Assembly: GCA_030654395.1 (NCBI GenBank)
Contig: JAURXM010000132.1
Location: forward strand, 372,001 to 436,000
Origin: Aquabacterium sp.
GTDB taxonomy: Bacteria > Pseudomonadota > Gammaproteobacteria > Burkholderiales > Burkholderiaceae_C
Length of the DNA stretch: 64,000 nucleotides
Direction: 5' to 3'
How positions within the stretch are numbered: the stretch's first letter is position 1; the number at the start of each line of letters is the position of its first letter. Below are positions 44,872 through 51,447 of this stretch, one piece after another. A program made the position numbers and the translations under genes. The notes below the pieces were generated by a model. It searched no databases and was not told the origin of the DNA. It was given only the letters and a program-made list of their open reading frames with translations.

Positions 44872-46056
44872 ATGTCTGACAACAGCTCACAAGATAAACA
44901 GTTACCGGCAACAGCCCGGAAACTGAGTAAGGCCAAGGAAGAAGGTCAAGTTGTCCGATCCAAGGACTTGGGCCACTTCTTGGTGATCATGGCCGCCACA
45001 GCGGTTTTGATGGGCTTTACCCCTACCTGGATGGGCAAGATGGAGTCGCTGATGCACGCAGCGCTGCGGTTTGACGCACGCTCCGTGGCCTCAACCGACA
45101 AAATGACCGACGCCTTGAGCTTGTGGTCTCAGGAGGCGCTGATGATGATCGTGCCCTTTAGCTTGAGCATTGTGTTGGCCTCAGCGGGGGCCAGTGTCAT
45201 GGCGGGTGGCTGGGTGATGTCGTTTAAGGTCTTGTCACCCAACTTTGGAAAGCTCAACCCCATTGCGGGTTTGGGTAACATTTTGTCCAAGCAGCAAATG
45301 ATCGATGCGCTCAAGGCCAGTGCCATGGGCCTTTTATTGGGCGCTGCTGGCGTGGCCTTTTTGATCAAGGCTTGGCCAAGTTTGGTTGGATTGATTACGC
45401 AACCCTTGCCTGCGGCCATTCATGATCTGGGTATGACCCTAGGTCAGGTATCAGGCTCCATGTTGTTGGTCATGGCGGCTTTTGCGGTGCTGGACTGGCC
45501 GCTGCAGCGCTACCTCTTCGCCGAGAAGATGAAGATGAGCCATCAGGATGTCAAGGACGAGCACAAGCAGCAAGAAGGCAATACAGAGGTCAAGGCGCGA
45601 ATCAAAGCACTCATGCGTGAAATCGGTCGCAAGCGCATGTTGGCTGCGGTGCCTACCGCCGATCTGGTCGTCATGAACCCAACCCACTATGCCGTGGCGC
45701 TGAAGTATGACGAAGCCTCCATGGGCGCGCCGCGGGTGGTGGCCAAGGGGGTTGATTTGTTGGCTTTGAAGATCCGCGACATCGCCACTGAAAACCGTGT
45801 GCCTGTTTTAGAGGCGCCACCTCTTGCGCGTGCCTTGTACGCCAATACTGAGATTGACATGGAAGTGCCTGTGGCCCTGTACAGCGCTGTAGCGCAGGTC
45901 ATGGCCTATGTCTTTCAGCTTCGTCATGCGATGGCAGGCCGTTCGCCTCTGCCTGGTAATTTGCCTGACCTGGATGTGCCGACCGATCTCGATCCGCAGC
46001 ACTCAGCCAAATTGAAGGCCAAATTGGCACAAGAAGAGATGGGGTTTGAAGTATGA
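44872..46056 (+). CDS. flhB: Flagellar export protein FlhB
   Basis: KQLPATARKLSKAKEEGQVVRSKDL and NPTH autocleavage motif (VVMNPTHYAVALKYD). Confidence 0.96.
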   Translation: MSDNSSQDKQLPATARKLSKAKEEGQVVRSKDLGHFLVIMAATAVLMGFTPTWMGKMESLMHAALRFDARSVASTDKMTDALSLWSQEALMMIVPFSLSIVLASAGASVMAGGWVMSFKVLSPNFGKLNPIAGLGNILSKQQMIDALKASAMGLLLGAAGVAFLIKAWPSLVGLITQPLPAAIHDLGMTLGQVSGSMLLVMAAFAVLDWPLQRYLFAEKMKMSHQDVKDEHKQQEGNTEVKARIKALMREIGRKRMLAAVPTADLVVMNPTHYAVALKYDEASMGAPRVVAKGVDLLALKIRDIATENRVPVLEAPPLARALYANTEIDMEVPVALYSAVAQVMAYVFQLRHAMAGRSPLPGNLPDLDVPTDLDPQHSAKLKAKLAQEEMGFEV

Positions 46057-48158
46057 ATCCGACACTGATGAGACTCCAAGCCTTGATGGGTGGCAGCGGC
46101 AAGAACCTGCAAGTGATGGCAGCCCCCATTGTGGTGGTGGCCGTCTTGGCTCTGATGGTGCTGCCTCTGCCTCCGTTTGTTTTGGATCTATTCTTTACCT
46201 TCAACATTGCGACAGCCTTGATGGTCATGATGGTGGCTGCCACCATGCTGCGTCCGCTGGACTTCGCAGCCTTCCCGCTGGTGCTGCTGCTGACAACTTT
46301 GTTGCGTTTGTCTTTGAACGTCGCATCCACTCGGGTGGTGTTGCTGGAGGGGCATACCGGAACGGGTGCAGCAGGCCAGGTGATCGAGTCTTTTGGGCAC
46401 TTCTTGATTGGTGGGAACTATGCGGTCGGTTTGATCGTGTTTGCCATCTTGGTGGTGATCAATTTTGTGGTGATCACCAAGGGTGCAGAACGAATCGCTG
46501 AAGTGGGCGCACGATTTACCTTGGATGCGATGCCTGGCAAGCAAATGGCCATCGATGCTGATTTGAACGCCGGCATGATTGACGAGAAAGAGGCCAAGCG
46601 CCGCCGCTTAGAAGTTGGCGAGGAGGCTGAGTTCCATGGTTCCATGGATGGCGCATCCAAGTTTGTGCGTGGTGACGCAGTCGCCGGCATTCTGATTTTG
46701 TTCATCAACATCGTGGGCGGCTTCGTGATTGGCGTTGTCCAGCACGGCATGTCTCCGGCTGACGCAGCCAGCACCTATGTTCTGTTGGCGGTGGGTGACG
46801 CCTTGGTCGCCCAAATCCCCGGTTTGCTGATCTCGGTGGCTGCCGCGATGGTCGTGTCCCGTGTGGGTAAGGAGCTGGACGTTGGCTCTCAGATCATGGG
46901 GCAGATGTTTGAAAACCCCAAAGTGGTTGGTGTGGCTGCCGGCATCATATTCATGCTGGGTTTGATCCCAGGTATGCCCAGTTTTGTGTTTTTGCCCATT
47001 GGCGGTGGTTTTGGATACCTTGCGTGGCGCCTGCATCAAAAACAAGAGGCAAACCGCTTGGCACCCCCGCAAGTGGACGCACCTGCTGACGCACCCAACC
47101 CCAACGGCGAGGCCTCGTGGGAGGATCTGCAGCCTGTCGATACGCTGGGCTTGGAGGTTGGCTATCGATTGATCCAGCTGGTTGACAAAGACCGAGGTGG
47201 TGACTTGCTGGCACGCATCAAAGGCGTGCGCCGCAAGTTTGCTCAAGAAGTCGGCTTCTTGCCGCCATCTGTTCACATCAAAGACAATTTGGAGCTAAAG
47301 CCTAGCTTCTACCGCATTACTTTGCGTGGTGCCGTTGTGGGCGAGGGAGAGGTTTTTCCTAATATGTTGATGGCCATCAATCCTGGGCACGTCAACAACC
47401 CCATCGCCGGTACCGCTGCGGTTGACCCTGCTTTTGGCCTGCCTGCCGTTTGGGTAGAAGAACGCCAGCGTGATGTGGCGCAAATGGAGGGCTACACAGT
47501 GGTTGATCCTGCGACCGTGGTGGCCACCCATCTTTCACACTTGATGCAAGTACACGCAGCCAAGTTGTTGGGGCGGGTAGAGACCCAGCAGTTGGTAGAG
47601 CACGTGACCAAGCTGGCCCCCAAACTGATCGAAGATGTGGTTCCCAAAATGGTCGGTATTGCTACCCTGCAAAAAGTGCTCCAACTGCTTCTAGAAGAGG
47701 GCGTGCACATCCGTGACATGCGCTCGATCATCGAGACCGTGGCCGAGCATGCCGCCACGAACCTCAATATCGTCAATGACCCGCCAGAGCTGGCACGTCG
47801 CATCCGAGTGGGCTTGGCTCCAGCCATTGTTCAGCAAATCTATGGCCCCGTGAAAGAGCTTGACGTCATCGCCATTGAGCCCGATTTGGAGCGTCTGCTG
47901 ACGCAGGCCTTGACCTCACCCAACGGCCCGATGCTGGACCCTGGTGTGGCGGACCATTTGACACGTCAAGCGGCCGAGGCCACGCAACGTCAAGAGAACA
48001 TGGGGCATCCCGCTTGCCTCTTGGTGCCCGATGCCATCCGCCCCTCTGTGGCGCGGCTACTCAAGCGGGCTGCGCCGCGCTTGAAAGTGCTGGGCCACAG
48101 CGAAATCCCTGAGACACATTCGATTCGTATCGGTACCCTGATCGGAGGCCACGCATGA
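46053..48158 (+). CDS. flhA: Flagellar export protein FlhA
   Basis: LPPFVLDLFFTFNIATALMVMMVA, ARFTLDAMPGKQMAIDADLNAGMIDEKEAKRRR; ATGA overlap with flhB. Confidence 0.97.
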   Translation: MNPTLMRLQALMGGSGKNLQVMAAPIVVVAVLALMVLPLPPFVLDLFFTFNIATALMVMMVAATMLRPLDFAAFPLVLLLTTLLRLSLNVASTRVVLLEGHTGTGAAGQVIESFGHFLIGGNYAVGLIVFAILVVINFVVITKGAERIAEVGARFTLDAMPGKQMAIDADLNAGMIDEKEAKRRRLEVGEEAEFHGSMDGASKFVRGDAVAGILILFINIVGGFVIGVVQHGMSPADAASTYVLLAVGDALVAQIPGLLISVAAAMVVSRVGKELDVGSQIMGQMFENPKVVGVAAGIIFMLGLIPGMPSFVFLPIGGGFGYLAWRLHQKQEANRLAPPQVDAPADAPNPNGEASWEDLQPVDTLGLEVGYRLIQLVDKDRGGDLLARIKGVRRKFAQEVGFLPPSVHIKDNLELKPSFYRITLRGAVVGEGEVFPNMLMAINPGHVNNPIAGTAAVDPAFGLPAVWVEERQRDVAQMEGYTVVDPATVVATHLSHLMQVHAAKLLGRVETQQLVEHVTKLAPKLIEDVVPKMVGIATLQKVLQLLLEEGVHIRDMRSIIETVAEHAATNLNIVNDPPELARRIRVGLAPAIVQQIYGPVKELDVIAIEPDLERLLTQALTSPNGPMLDPGVADHLTRQAAEATQRQENMGHPACLLVPDAIRPSVARLLKRAAPRLKVLGHSEIPETHSIRIGTLIGGHA

Positions 48159-49831
48159 ACGTCAAACGCTTTACTGGACGAAATAGCCGTGAGGCCATGC
48201 AAAAGGTCAAGGCCGCATTCGGCGATGACGCCGTGGTGCTGTCGACCAAGCCAGCTGCCGAGGGCGGCATAGAGATCCTGGCCATGGCATCTGACAACGT
48301 GCCCGCGATGGACAGCTACGCCATCGAAAAAGATGAGCCTGACCTGGGTGTACGCCCAGAGCCTGTCAGCTTGCCGACCAAAAAACAAGCTGGCAAGCAG
48401 GCCAAAGAGGCCATGTCGCATTTAGCCAGCACGGTGCAAGACGACGTCAAGCAACTGGCGATGAGCACCTTGTCGTTCCAAGACTATGTGCGCGAGCGCA
48501 TGCTCAAGCGCCGTCAAGCTGCGATGCAGCCGCGCACCGAGCCCGCGATGGCCATGCCGCCAGAGGAGCAGCTGACGCAGCGCTTCGCTGCACCCAAGGT
48601 TCAGCGACAAGAAGCACTTGCGCCTGTTGACCTAGGCGGCGACACACTCAAACGCGGCGCGCCTAGTCGCCCTGCGCCAGAAGCCGATGAGTGGGAGGCA
48701 TTGCGCCAGATATCAGTGGAACGCCCTGTTGTGAAGGCCAAGCCAGCGCAGGTAGTGCCATTGCGCAGCGAGCATACAGACCTCACCATCGACAAAATCA
48801 AGCCTGCCCGTGATGCTGTACGCAGCGCCTCGCCTGATGCGGCGACCTTGGCCGCGCTGAAAGCATCACAAGAGGCCAATGCCTCGATGTTGGGCGAGTT
48901 GCGGGCCATGCGTGCGATGATGAAGGAGCGGTTTGACACCATGGCTTTCATCGACAAGCTGGGCCGCTCACCGGCACAAGCAGCGTTGGCGCAAAAACTA
49001 TTGGATGGCGGTTTCTCCACCGTACTGATTCGCAAGTTGCTCGATGCCATGCCCGCTGATGTGGCCAACGGCGCTCACGACGAAGTGCAGTGGGCCACCC
49101 AAGTGCTGCAACGCAACTTGAACACCGCAGATCATGAGTTGTCGGTAGAAGACCAGGGCGGCATCTTTGCCATGATTGGCTCCACAGGGGTGGGCAAGAC
49201 CACCACCACGGCCAAGCTGGCTGCGGTATTTGCTGCCAAGCACGGGGCAGGCAACTTGGGCTTGATCACCCTGGATGCCTACCGTGTGGGCGCGCACGAG
49301 CAACTGCGTGCCTATGGCCGCATCCTCGGGGTGCCTGTTCACATGGCCCATGACCGTGCCGCACTGGAAGACCTGCTGGAGCTGCTGGCGGGTAAAAAAC
49401 TGATCTTGATCGACACGGCGGGTATGGCTCAACGTGACGGTCGCACCAAAGAGTTGTTGGACATGCTGGCACATCCCAGTATCCGAAAATTGCTGGTGAT
49501 CAACACAGCTGCACAAGGGGACGCGATCGAGGATGTGATGAACTCGTATCACGCCGAAGTCTGCGCAGGCGTCGTGCTGTCCAAGCTGGATGAGGCCGTC
49601 AAACTCGGCCCAGCCTTGGATGCGTTAATTCGTCACAAATTGAAGGTACTTGGTGTGGCCAACGGACAGCGTGTGCCGGAAGATTGGCACAGGCTGTCTG
49701 CGCAAGCCCTGATCCACCGTGCACTGCGTGCCAGTCTGAATCCTGCATACCGTCTGGACCCGAACGAAGTGAGTTTGATGTTCTCTATGCCTGCACAGAC
49801 GGACCCGTTGTCCCCGGCTCGCCCTGTTTGA
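48155..49831 (+). CDS. flhF: Flagellar SRP-like GTPase FlhF
   Basis: MNVKRFTGRNSREAMQKVKAAFGDDAVVLSTK; GSTGVGKTTTTAKLAAVFA; LITLDAYRVGAHEQLRAYGRILGVPV. Confidence 0.96.
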   Translation: MNVKRFTGRNSREAMQKVKAAFGDDAVVLSTKPAAEGGIEILAMASDNVPAMDSYAIEKDEPDLGVRPEPVSLPTKKQAGKQAKEAMSHLASTVQDDVKQLAMSTLSFQDYVRERMLKRRQAAMQPRTEPAMAMPPEEQLTQRFAAPKVQRQEALAPVDLGGDTLKRGAPSRPAPEADEWEALRQISVERPVVKAKPAQVVPLRSEHTDLTIDKIKPARDAVRSASPDAATLAALKASQEANASMLGELRAMRAMMKERFDTMAFIDKLGRSPAQAALAQKLLDGGFSTVLIRKLLDAMPADVANGAHDEVQWATQVLQRNLNTADHELSVEDQGGIFAMIGSTGVGKTTTTAKLAAVFAAKHGAGNLGLITLDAYRVGAHEQLRAYGRILGVPVHMAHDRAALEDLLELLAGKKLILIDTAGMAQRDGRTKELLDMLAHPSIRKLLVINTAAQGDAIEDVMNSYHAEVCAGVVLSKLDEAVKLGPALDALIRHKLKVLGVANGQRVPEDWHRLSAQALIHRALRASLNPAYRLDPNEVSLMFSMPAQTDPLSPARPV

Positions 49832-49873: not shown

Positions 49874-50716
49874 ATGATCACAACCGAACGCAAGCCACTG
49901 AGTGCGAGTCAGGCCACAGCCCGCCAACCGGCGGATCAGGCCCAGGGCTTGAGGCAGATGTTTGCCTCTAGGGTCCTGCGCTTCGTGCCTGTCGTGGCCA
50001 ACCCCAGCGCCGGCTGTGGTGGCTTGGTACTGGAGCGCCTTTGTGCGGCCTACGCCGATTTTGATTTACACACACTGGTGGTCGATGCCAGTGACCAAGC
50101 ACGCCCTCCCGGTGAGCTCGCTGAGTTTGATCTGGCCGAAGGTGTTGAAGTCTTGTCCGACCTGATCAGCTACATGCCCGCTAGAGGCTTGCCCCTGCGC
50201 TACGCAGATGCCAGAGGCTCATGCTGCAGCCTACTCGATGCCTTGGCCGATGCCTCGCCGCAAAGTGACGTGGTGTTGGTGCACGCATCCGCCAGCGAGT
50301 TGGTGCGCTTGTTTGGGCACCGCGCACGAGGCATCAACTTGAGGCCCTTGCTGTTCACCAACGACTTGGCTGAAGGCCTCAAAGACGCTTATGGATCGGT
50401 CAAAGTGCTGAGCCAGCGTGGAGGCTGGCTGGCCTACGATTTGTTGGTTTGCGCCACCACGCGCAGCCAGCAAGCGGAGCCTGTTGCAGAGCGTTTGGCG
50501 CGCTGCTCAGATGACTTCTTGGGCGTAGCGCAACGCGACTGGCAACTGTTGGACCCCAGTGAGCCCGCTGCCACTGAGCCACACCCTCGTTTTATGGAAA
50601 TGGCAGCGGGTTTGCTGCACGGTGCCTTGCCCCTGACCTTGGGTGACACGGCTTTTGATCAACTGATGTCGCCAGGGGCCGCCTTGCCCTCACGCGCCGC
50701 ACCTGTACTCAATTGA
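49874..50716 (+). CDS. flhG: FlhG-like protein lacking a recognisable Walker A motif
   Basis: Located between flhF and fliA; DQAQGLRQMF N-terminal motif; P-loop position reads VVANPSAGCGGLVLERL. Confidence 0.75.
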   Translation: MITTERKPLSASQATARQPADQAQGLRQMFASRVLRFVPVVANPSAGCGGLVLERLCAAYADFDLHTLVVDASDQARPPGELAEFDLAEGVEVLSDLISYMPARGLPLRYADARGSCCSLLDALADASPQSDVVLVHASASELVRLFGHRARGINLRPLLFTNDLAEGLKDAYGSVKVLSQRGGWLAYDLLVCATTRSQQAEPVAERLARCSDDFLGVAQRDWQLLDPSEPAATEPHPRFMEMAAGLLHGALPLTLGDTAFDQLMSPGAALPSRAAPVLN

Positions 50717-50733
50717 CGATCATGGAGCAAAAC

Positions 50734-51447
50734 ATGTACACCGCCAAAGGACGCCTCGACGTTGACACCATGTTGCGTCAGTACAGTCCGCTGGTTCGCC
50801 GATTGGCGCACCAGATGATTGCCAAATTGCCGGCCAACGTCGAGATAGATGACCTGATTCAGGTCGGCATGATCGGGCTCACTGATGCACTGACCCGCTT
50901 TGATGCAGGGCAGGGGGTTCAGTTTGAAACCTTCGCCACCCAGCGCATTCGCGGCGCCATGCTCGATGAGTTGCGTGGCGCCGACTGGCTCAGTCGAGGC
51001 ATACGCAAGCAGCAGCGTGACATTGAGTCAGCCGTTCACCGGTTGGAGCAACGCTTAGGCCGTGCGCCGCATGAAGGCGAAATCGCCAAAGAAATGGACA
51101 TGACGCTGCCAGATTACCAAGAGATGCTCGGCAAGGTGCGTGGGACCCAGCTGATCTACCTTGAGGACATGAGCGGCGAGGATGGCGACAACGACTACCT
51201 TGATCGGCATGTGACCAATGAGGGCGATGACCCTTTGAGTCTGCTGCAAGACCACCGCATGCGCCATGCGTTGGTTGAAGCCATCAAGCACCTGCCCGAG
51301 CGCGAGCAATACGTCATGAGCATGTACTACGAGCAGGACATGAATCTCAAGGAAATCGCCGCCGTTCTGGGCGTGACCGAGTCCCGCATTTGTCAGTTAC
51401 ACAGCCAATCGATTGCGCGTTTGCGTGTCAAGTTACGCGAGTGGTGA
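50734..51447 (+). CDS. fliA: Flagellar sigma factor FliA (sigma-28)
   Basis: YSPLVRRLAHQMIAKLPANVEIDDLIQVGMIGLTDALTRFD...FETFATQRIRGAMLDELR; EIAAVLGVTESRICQLHSQSIARL. Confidence 0.96.
   Translation: MYTAKGRLDVDTMLRQYSPLVRRLAHQMIAKLPANVEIDDLIQVGMIGLTDALTRFDAGQGVQFETFATQRIRGAMLDELRGADWLSRGIRKQQRDIESAVHRLEQRLGRAPHEGEIAKEMDMTLPDYQEMLGKVRGTQLIYLEDMSGEDGDNDYLDRHVTNEGDDPLSLLQDHRMRHALVEAIKHLPEREQYVMSMYYEQDMNLKEIAAVLGVTESRICQLHSQSIARLRVKLREW

Follow-up and report, generated by a model that had tools for sequence, protein, structure and literature searches.

The closest described relatives of the protein analyzed here are FlhG, FleN, and YlxH (PDB 4RZ2, 4RZ3, 5J1J, and 8PB9), which are encoded in the same slot between flhF and fliA, carry the same DQAxxLR helix, and resemble it in sequence over the MinD-type domain, including the DAYxxxK signature. 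The literature consulted, up to a review of December 2025, consistently treats FlhG as an ATPase, and the glutamine of its helix is co-catalytic for FlhF (PMC12826062). In Vibrio, Walker A mutations deprive FlhG of ATPase activity and polar localization; the master regulator is no longer repressed, and the cells are hyperflagellated (PMC7226244). Which of the jobs of FlhG need ATP is debated. A family in which the helix is kept and the ATP site is gone represents a natural separation-of-function experiment, and flagellar number and position in that family would show what the helix does without ATP cycling.

Organization of the Locus

The window, a stretch of 64,000 nucleotides from an Aquabacterium genome, contains flhA, flhF, the ORF designated FlhG1, and fliA in that order, with FlhG1 directly 3' of flhF (Table 1). 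In what follows, "family" denotes the bacterial family of Aquabacterium and "order" denotes the Burkholderiales. The slot of FlhG1 between flhF and fliA is conserved in its relatives and across families. The original prediction had described an ORF in this slot that carries DQAQGLR and has NPSAGCGG, without lysines, in place of the P-loop, next to an intact FlhF; these readings were correct in sequence and position. The FlhF of the window retains GSTGVGKTTTTAK and matches the solved FlhF structures 8r9r (E 2e-48) and 2px0, 2px3, and 3syn (E 1e-22 for 2px0 and 3syn). The listed TTG start of the fliA frame overlaps FlhG1; translation more likely begins at one of two ATG codons, at 50723 and 50735.

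Table 1. Features of the flhA-fliA region, numbered from the first nucleotide of the window
Feature	Position	Strand	Evidence or remark
flhA, FHIPEP family	46053..48158	+	5' gene of operon; Pfam PF00771 E 2e-257
flhF, SRP-type GTPase, P-loop intact, presumed partner	48155..49831	+	NCBIfam FlhF; PDB matches
FlhG1, putative FlhG-derived pseudo-ATPase, 280 aa, ATG start	49874..50716	+	
DQAQGLR, start of putative FlhF-activating ("enhancer") helix, residues 21-27	49934..49954	+	sequence
Degenerate P-loop position, NPSAGCGG for GKGGVGKT, residues 43-50	50000..50023	+	alignment
Degenerate switch II position, VVLVHASAS for LLVDCAAGI, Asp to His	50270..50296	+	hhalign, column tally
FlhG signature DAYGSVK (canonical DAYALIK), Tyr and Lys kept	50384..50404	+	family column tally
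fliA (sigma-28), 3' gene	50713..51447	+	NCBIfam FliA E 1e-89

An orthologue of FlhG1 is found in 36 of the 37 genomes of the genus and is frame-broken in one of the 36. In one bin of the genus, flhG1 is seemingly split into two frames (L074, G027:C47:3534-4100), and in genome G165 (L131) no FlhG-like protein was detected 3' of flhF. A chance ORF, a frameshift, and a pseudogene were each considered as the identity of FlhG1 and were ruled out by its genus-wide conservation and its pN/pS.

Descent of FlhG1 from FlhG

Judged by profile comparison, FlhG1 is a true derivative of FlhG. Unlike FlhG, FleN, and YlxH, the single FlhG1 protein gave no match in searches of Pfam and NCBIfam, a result that would be expected if the ORF were unrelated to FlhG and had acquired DQAxxLR by chance. 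This explanation, to which we assign a negligible probability, is refuted by the profile searches. A profile of 23 family members searched against 177,635 PDB sequences (E up to 10) gave five matches, all of them to FleN or FlhG (best E 3e-8 for FleN and 0.01 for FlhG). Alignment with canonical FlhG, which had been proposed as a check on the prediction, gave an hhalign value of 97.4% for the FlhG1 profile against seven canonical sequences, and the match holds when the helix is removed (94.7%); also without the helix, the value against lysine-retaining FlhG of other families is 98.6%. The corresponding values for MinD, Mrp, and ParA of the same genome, which have the wider SIMIBI superfamily in common with FlhG1, are below 3%. 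The conservation of the operon position across families also argues against an unrelated ORF. In the DAYxxxK region typical of FlhG, the tyrosine is present in 126 and the lysine in 125 of 129 family sequences. An AlphaFold model of FlhG1 built from nine close relatives was too poor to be of use (pLDDT 41), and a Foldseek search of the PDB with this model gave no match under E 0.001.

Loss of the ATP Site

Unlike FlhG, FleN, and YlxH, FlhG1 is devoid of lysines at and around the position of the P-loop, and histidine replaces the switch II aspartate. The deviant Walker A motif KGGxGK[ST] is absent, as are the Walker A and switch II residues of active members of the MinD/ParA superfamily. The same is true of its relatives: the 129 non-canonical family sequences taken from flhF-fliA loci all lack both the P-loop lysine and GxxxxGK[ST], and the position of the switch II aspartate is occupied by His in 93 and by Tyr in 25 (118 of 129). 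We detected flhF in 226 of 300 family genomes and in 136 of 199 genomes of the order; a strict DNA pattern, DQA..GKGGVGK, was matched in seven of the 300 family genomes, from three genera, and a slightly looser version of it in none of the 199 genomes of the order. A second, fused FlhG in the genome of the window was considered and rejected, there being no DQA..GKGGVGK match.

In other families of the order, FlhG1 proteins comprise SGRxGVGKT and lysine-less types and resemble the FlhG1 of the window in having a nearly invariant helix and in having nearly always lost the first (signature) lysine. They differ in that some retain the P-loop lysine, with GxxxxGK[ST] still present in 11 of 63, and in that most of these families are without the separate ATPase, FlhG2, described below. 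These lysine and motif counts show a decay that proceeds by degrees within the order and has run to completion in the family of Aquabacterium. The loss of the ATP site, which had been viewed as a property of one gene, thus extends to the whole family and, in partial form, to the order, and it is well supported by the sequences that the MinD-type ATPase of FlhG1 is dead throughout the family. Annotation of an "FlhG ATPase" by position is unsafe in the Burkholderiales. Searches of open-access texts, which could miss an older report, turned up no description of an FlhG without these lysines.

Within the genus, pN/pS is 0.33 for the whole FlhG1 gene, 0.36 for the P-loop region, and ~0.34 for the rest of the domain; dS in the panel of genus members is ~1, which makes these values approximate. 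Purifying selection thus acts on the remainder of the domain as well, indicating that FlhG1 is a functional pseudo-ATPase rather than a decaying remnant. This conservation, together with the invariance of Asn43, Pro44, Gly49, and Gly50 and the conservation of His or Tyr in place of the switch II aspartate, could also reflect an unusual pocket through which FlhG1 still binds nucleotide in place of the P-loop. We consider such a pocket improbable, since both lysines have been lost in every non-canonical member of the family and the switch II aspartate in nearly all, and since the P-loop region is under less constraint than the helix.

Conservation of the Putative FlhF-activating Helix

The glutamine of the helix is present in every aligned relative. 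This invariance is partly built in because the extraction pattern required Gln, but three loci missed by the pattern also carry it. The flanking positions are more variable: the aspartate is replaced by His in 25 of 199 sequences, and the arginine is replaced in 32 aligned sequences. Among members of the genus, the 14 codons from the start of the motif, which represent the helix, have a pN of 0.07 and a pN/pS of 0.13 and are, by both measures, the most constrained of 247 segments of this length. The helix is among the segments of lowest entropy in the family and has the second lowest entropy in other families of the order.

A branch of the family that consists of other genera (L133-L156) carries a drifted form of the helix, HQ[AG]xxLH, in which Asp and Arg are lost and Gln is retained. 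Judged from the motif, this drift may mark a changed interface with FlhF, and FlhF activation may be weaker in that part of the family.

Proposed Activity of FlhG1

The descent from FlhG, the loss of the P-loop and switch residues, and the constraint on the helix give good sequence support to the prediction of a pseudo-ATPase that retains the FlhF-activating helix. FlhG1 is probably an FlhG with a dead MinD-type ATPase that has kept its helix and serves as an ATP-independent activator of FlhF. In the proposed mechanism, FlhG1 would stimulate the GTPase of FlhF independently of ATP: its helix glutamine would complete the active site of dimeric FlhF, a role known for FlhG, and the dead domain would hold the helix and dock to partners. 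Without ATP-driven dimerization, FlhG1 would not undergo the membrane binding and release cycle of canonical FlhG. The phenotypes of the Vibrio Walker A mutants cited above suggest that FlhG1 should act as a permanently ATP-free FlhG that still presents the helix to FlhF. ATP-dependent functions may, as a hypothesis, be supplied by the helix-less FlhG2 in this genome and in most of the family.

A Separate ATPase of the FlhG/FleN Class

FlhG2 is a protein of 270 amino acids encoded on another contig of the same genome (C3:43190-44002, minus strand). It shares the FlhG/FleN-class core but, unlike FlhG1, has an intact GKGGVGKT, along with DTGAGI and TDAYATIK, and is paired with a diguanylate-cyclase-like (GGDEF) gene. 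Its closest solved structures are FleN (5j1j, E 5e-53) and FlhG (E 8e-42); MinD follows with E 5e-31 (4e-19 for the E. coli protein). The DQAxxLR helix is absent from FlhG2 and from all 30 orthologues examined; these 30 also lack the C-terminal membrane helix, the EFFMxxWL segment of canonical FlhG. By its motifs and structural matches, FlhG2 is classed as an FlhG/FleN-class ATPase without the helix. Three further genomes of the genus encode orthologues with 85-90% identity, so contamination is an unlikely source of FlhG2.

The start of flhG2 overlaps the end of the GGDEF gene by 4 nt (L232:12191-14013, contig C3), and cheR-cheD-cheB adjoin flhG2 in divergent orientation. A GGDEF neighbor was found at all 53 flhG2 loci inspected, and cheR is nearby in 25. 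FlhG2 is nearly confined to the family, with three clear cases outside it. No report of FlhG2 was found in open-access texts, among which an older report could be missed.

The original prediction had proposed that this locus dispenses with ATP-dependent number control, a proposal that is weakened by FlhG2, whose ATPase motifs are intact. It had also named, as one finding that would count against it, a second intact FlhG elsewhere together with an ORF unrelated to motility. The first half is in part borne out by FlhG2, although FlhG2 lacks the DQAxxLR helix, and the second half is not, as the ORF lies in the flhF operon.

Distribution of FlhG2 in the Family

Among the 300 family genomes, FlhG2 is present in 190 of 226 that have flhF, as compared with 5 of 74 that lack it (odds ratio 73, p 1e-34). 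When kinship among genomes is handled by taking one genome per genus, the counts are 83 of 100 and 1 of 40. This co-occurrence with flhF indicates that FlhG2 is a motility-linked gene. Three of the five flhF-negative genomes with FlhG2 are incomplete, and the genus to which another, G342, belongs has flhF-positive species. Of the 110 genomes with a strong FlhG1 match, 104 have FlhG2, whereas the seven with a canonical fused FlhG all lack it.

These results raise the possibility, which we hold tentatively as an extension of the pseudo-ATPase reading, that FlhG has been divided between two genes, with FlhG1 providing the helix and FlhG2 the ATP-dependent control of number or polarity, perhaps coupled to c-di-GMP through the GGDEF neighbor. 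The position of FlhG2 closer to FleN and FlhG than to MinD, its tracking of flhF and FlhG1, its absence where FlhG is canonical, the constant GGDEF neighbor, and its near confinement to the family are all consistent with such a division. However, FlhG2 is not required, because 29 flhF-positive genomes have neither canonical FlhG nor FlhG2, and those of the 29 that were examined have a lysine-less FlhG1. As FlhG2 has no C-terminal membrane helix, it is not simply the other half of FlhG, and it is not placed inside FlhG in the phylogenetic tree. Its loss together with flagella would fit any motility gene, and the genomes with canonical FlhG belong to three genera, so that the mutual exclusivity may represent a single event. 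FlhG2 adds a second half, open to testing, to the natural separation-of-function experiment.

The seven genomes with canonical fused FlhG (G086, G093, G109, G218, G224, G299, and G302; L115-L121) lack FlhC and FlhG2, and their FlhF is weakly similar. From these features, the three genera look like cases in which the flagellar system has been replaced.

Relation to the Master Regulator

The genome of the window has FlhC and gave no match to the FleQ domain (PF06490), for which the survey gave only weak matches. In the family, FlhC is present in 13 of 13 sampled genomes with the pseudo-FlhG and in 0 of 7 with canonical FlhG. An alternative in which ATP-dependent control by FlhG was simply lost would account for this split: bacteria run by FlhDC need no inhibition of a FleQ/FlrA-type regulator, the ATPase decayed, and FlhG2 has another job, such as placing chemoreceptor arrays. 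It would also account for the many other families of the order that have a lysine-less FlhG and no FlhG2 and for the location of flhG2 beside cheR-cheD-cheB in part of the family. We regard this alternative as rather unlikely, though little more so than a division of FlhG between two genes. Outside the family there is no association between FlhC and P-loop loss (p 0.67), and the lysine persists in some FlhC-positive families; the Pfam domain of FleQ has little power as a test; and FlhG2 is nearer to FleN and FlhG than to MinD or ParA. A tie between P-loop loss and the FlhDC master regulator, perfect in the family sample and absent outside it, is a lead and is not claimed. The genome of the window has two FlhC genes (G000:C25:231169-231681 and G000:C37:493523-494035).
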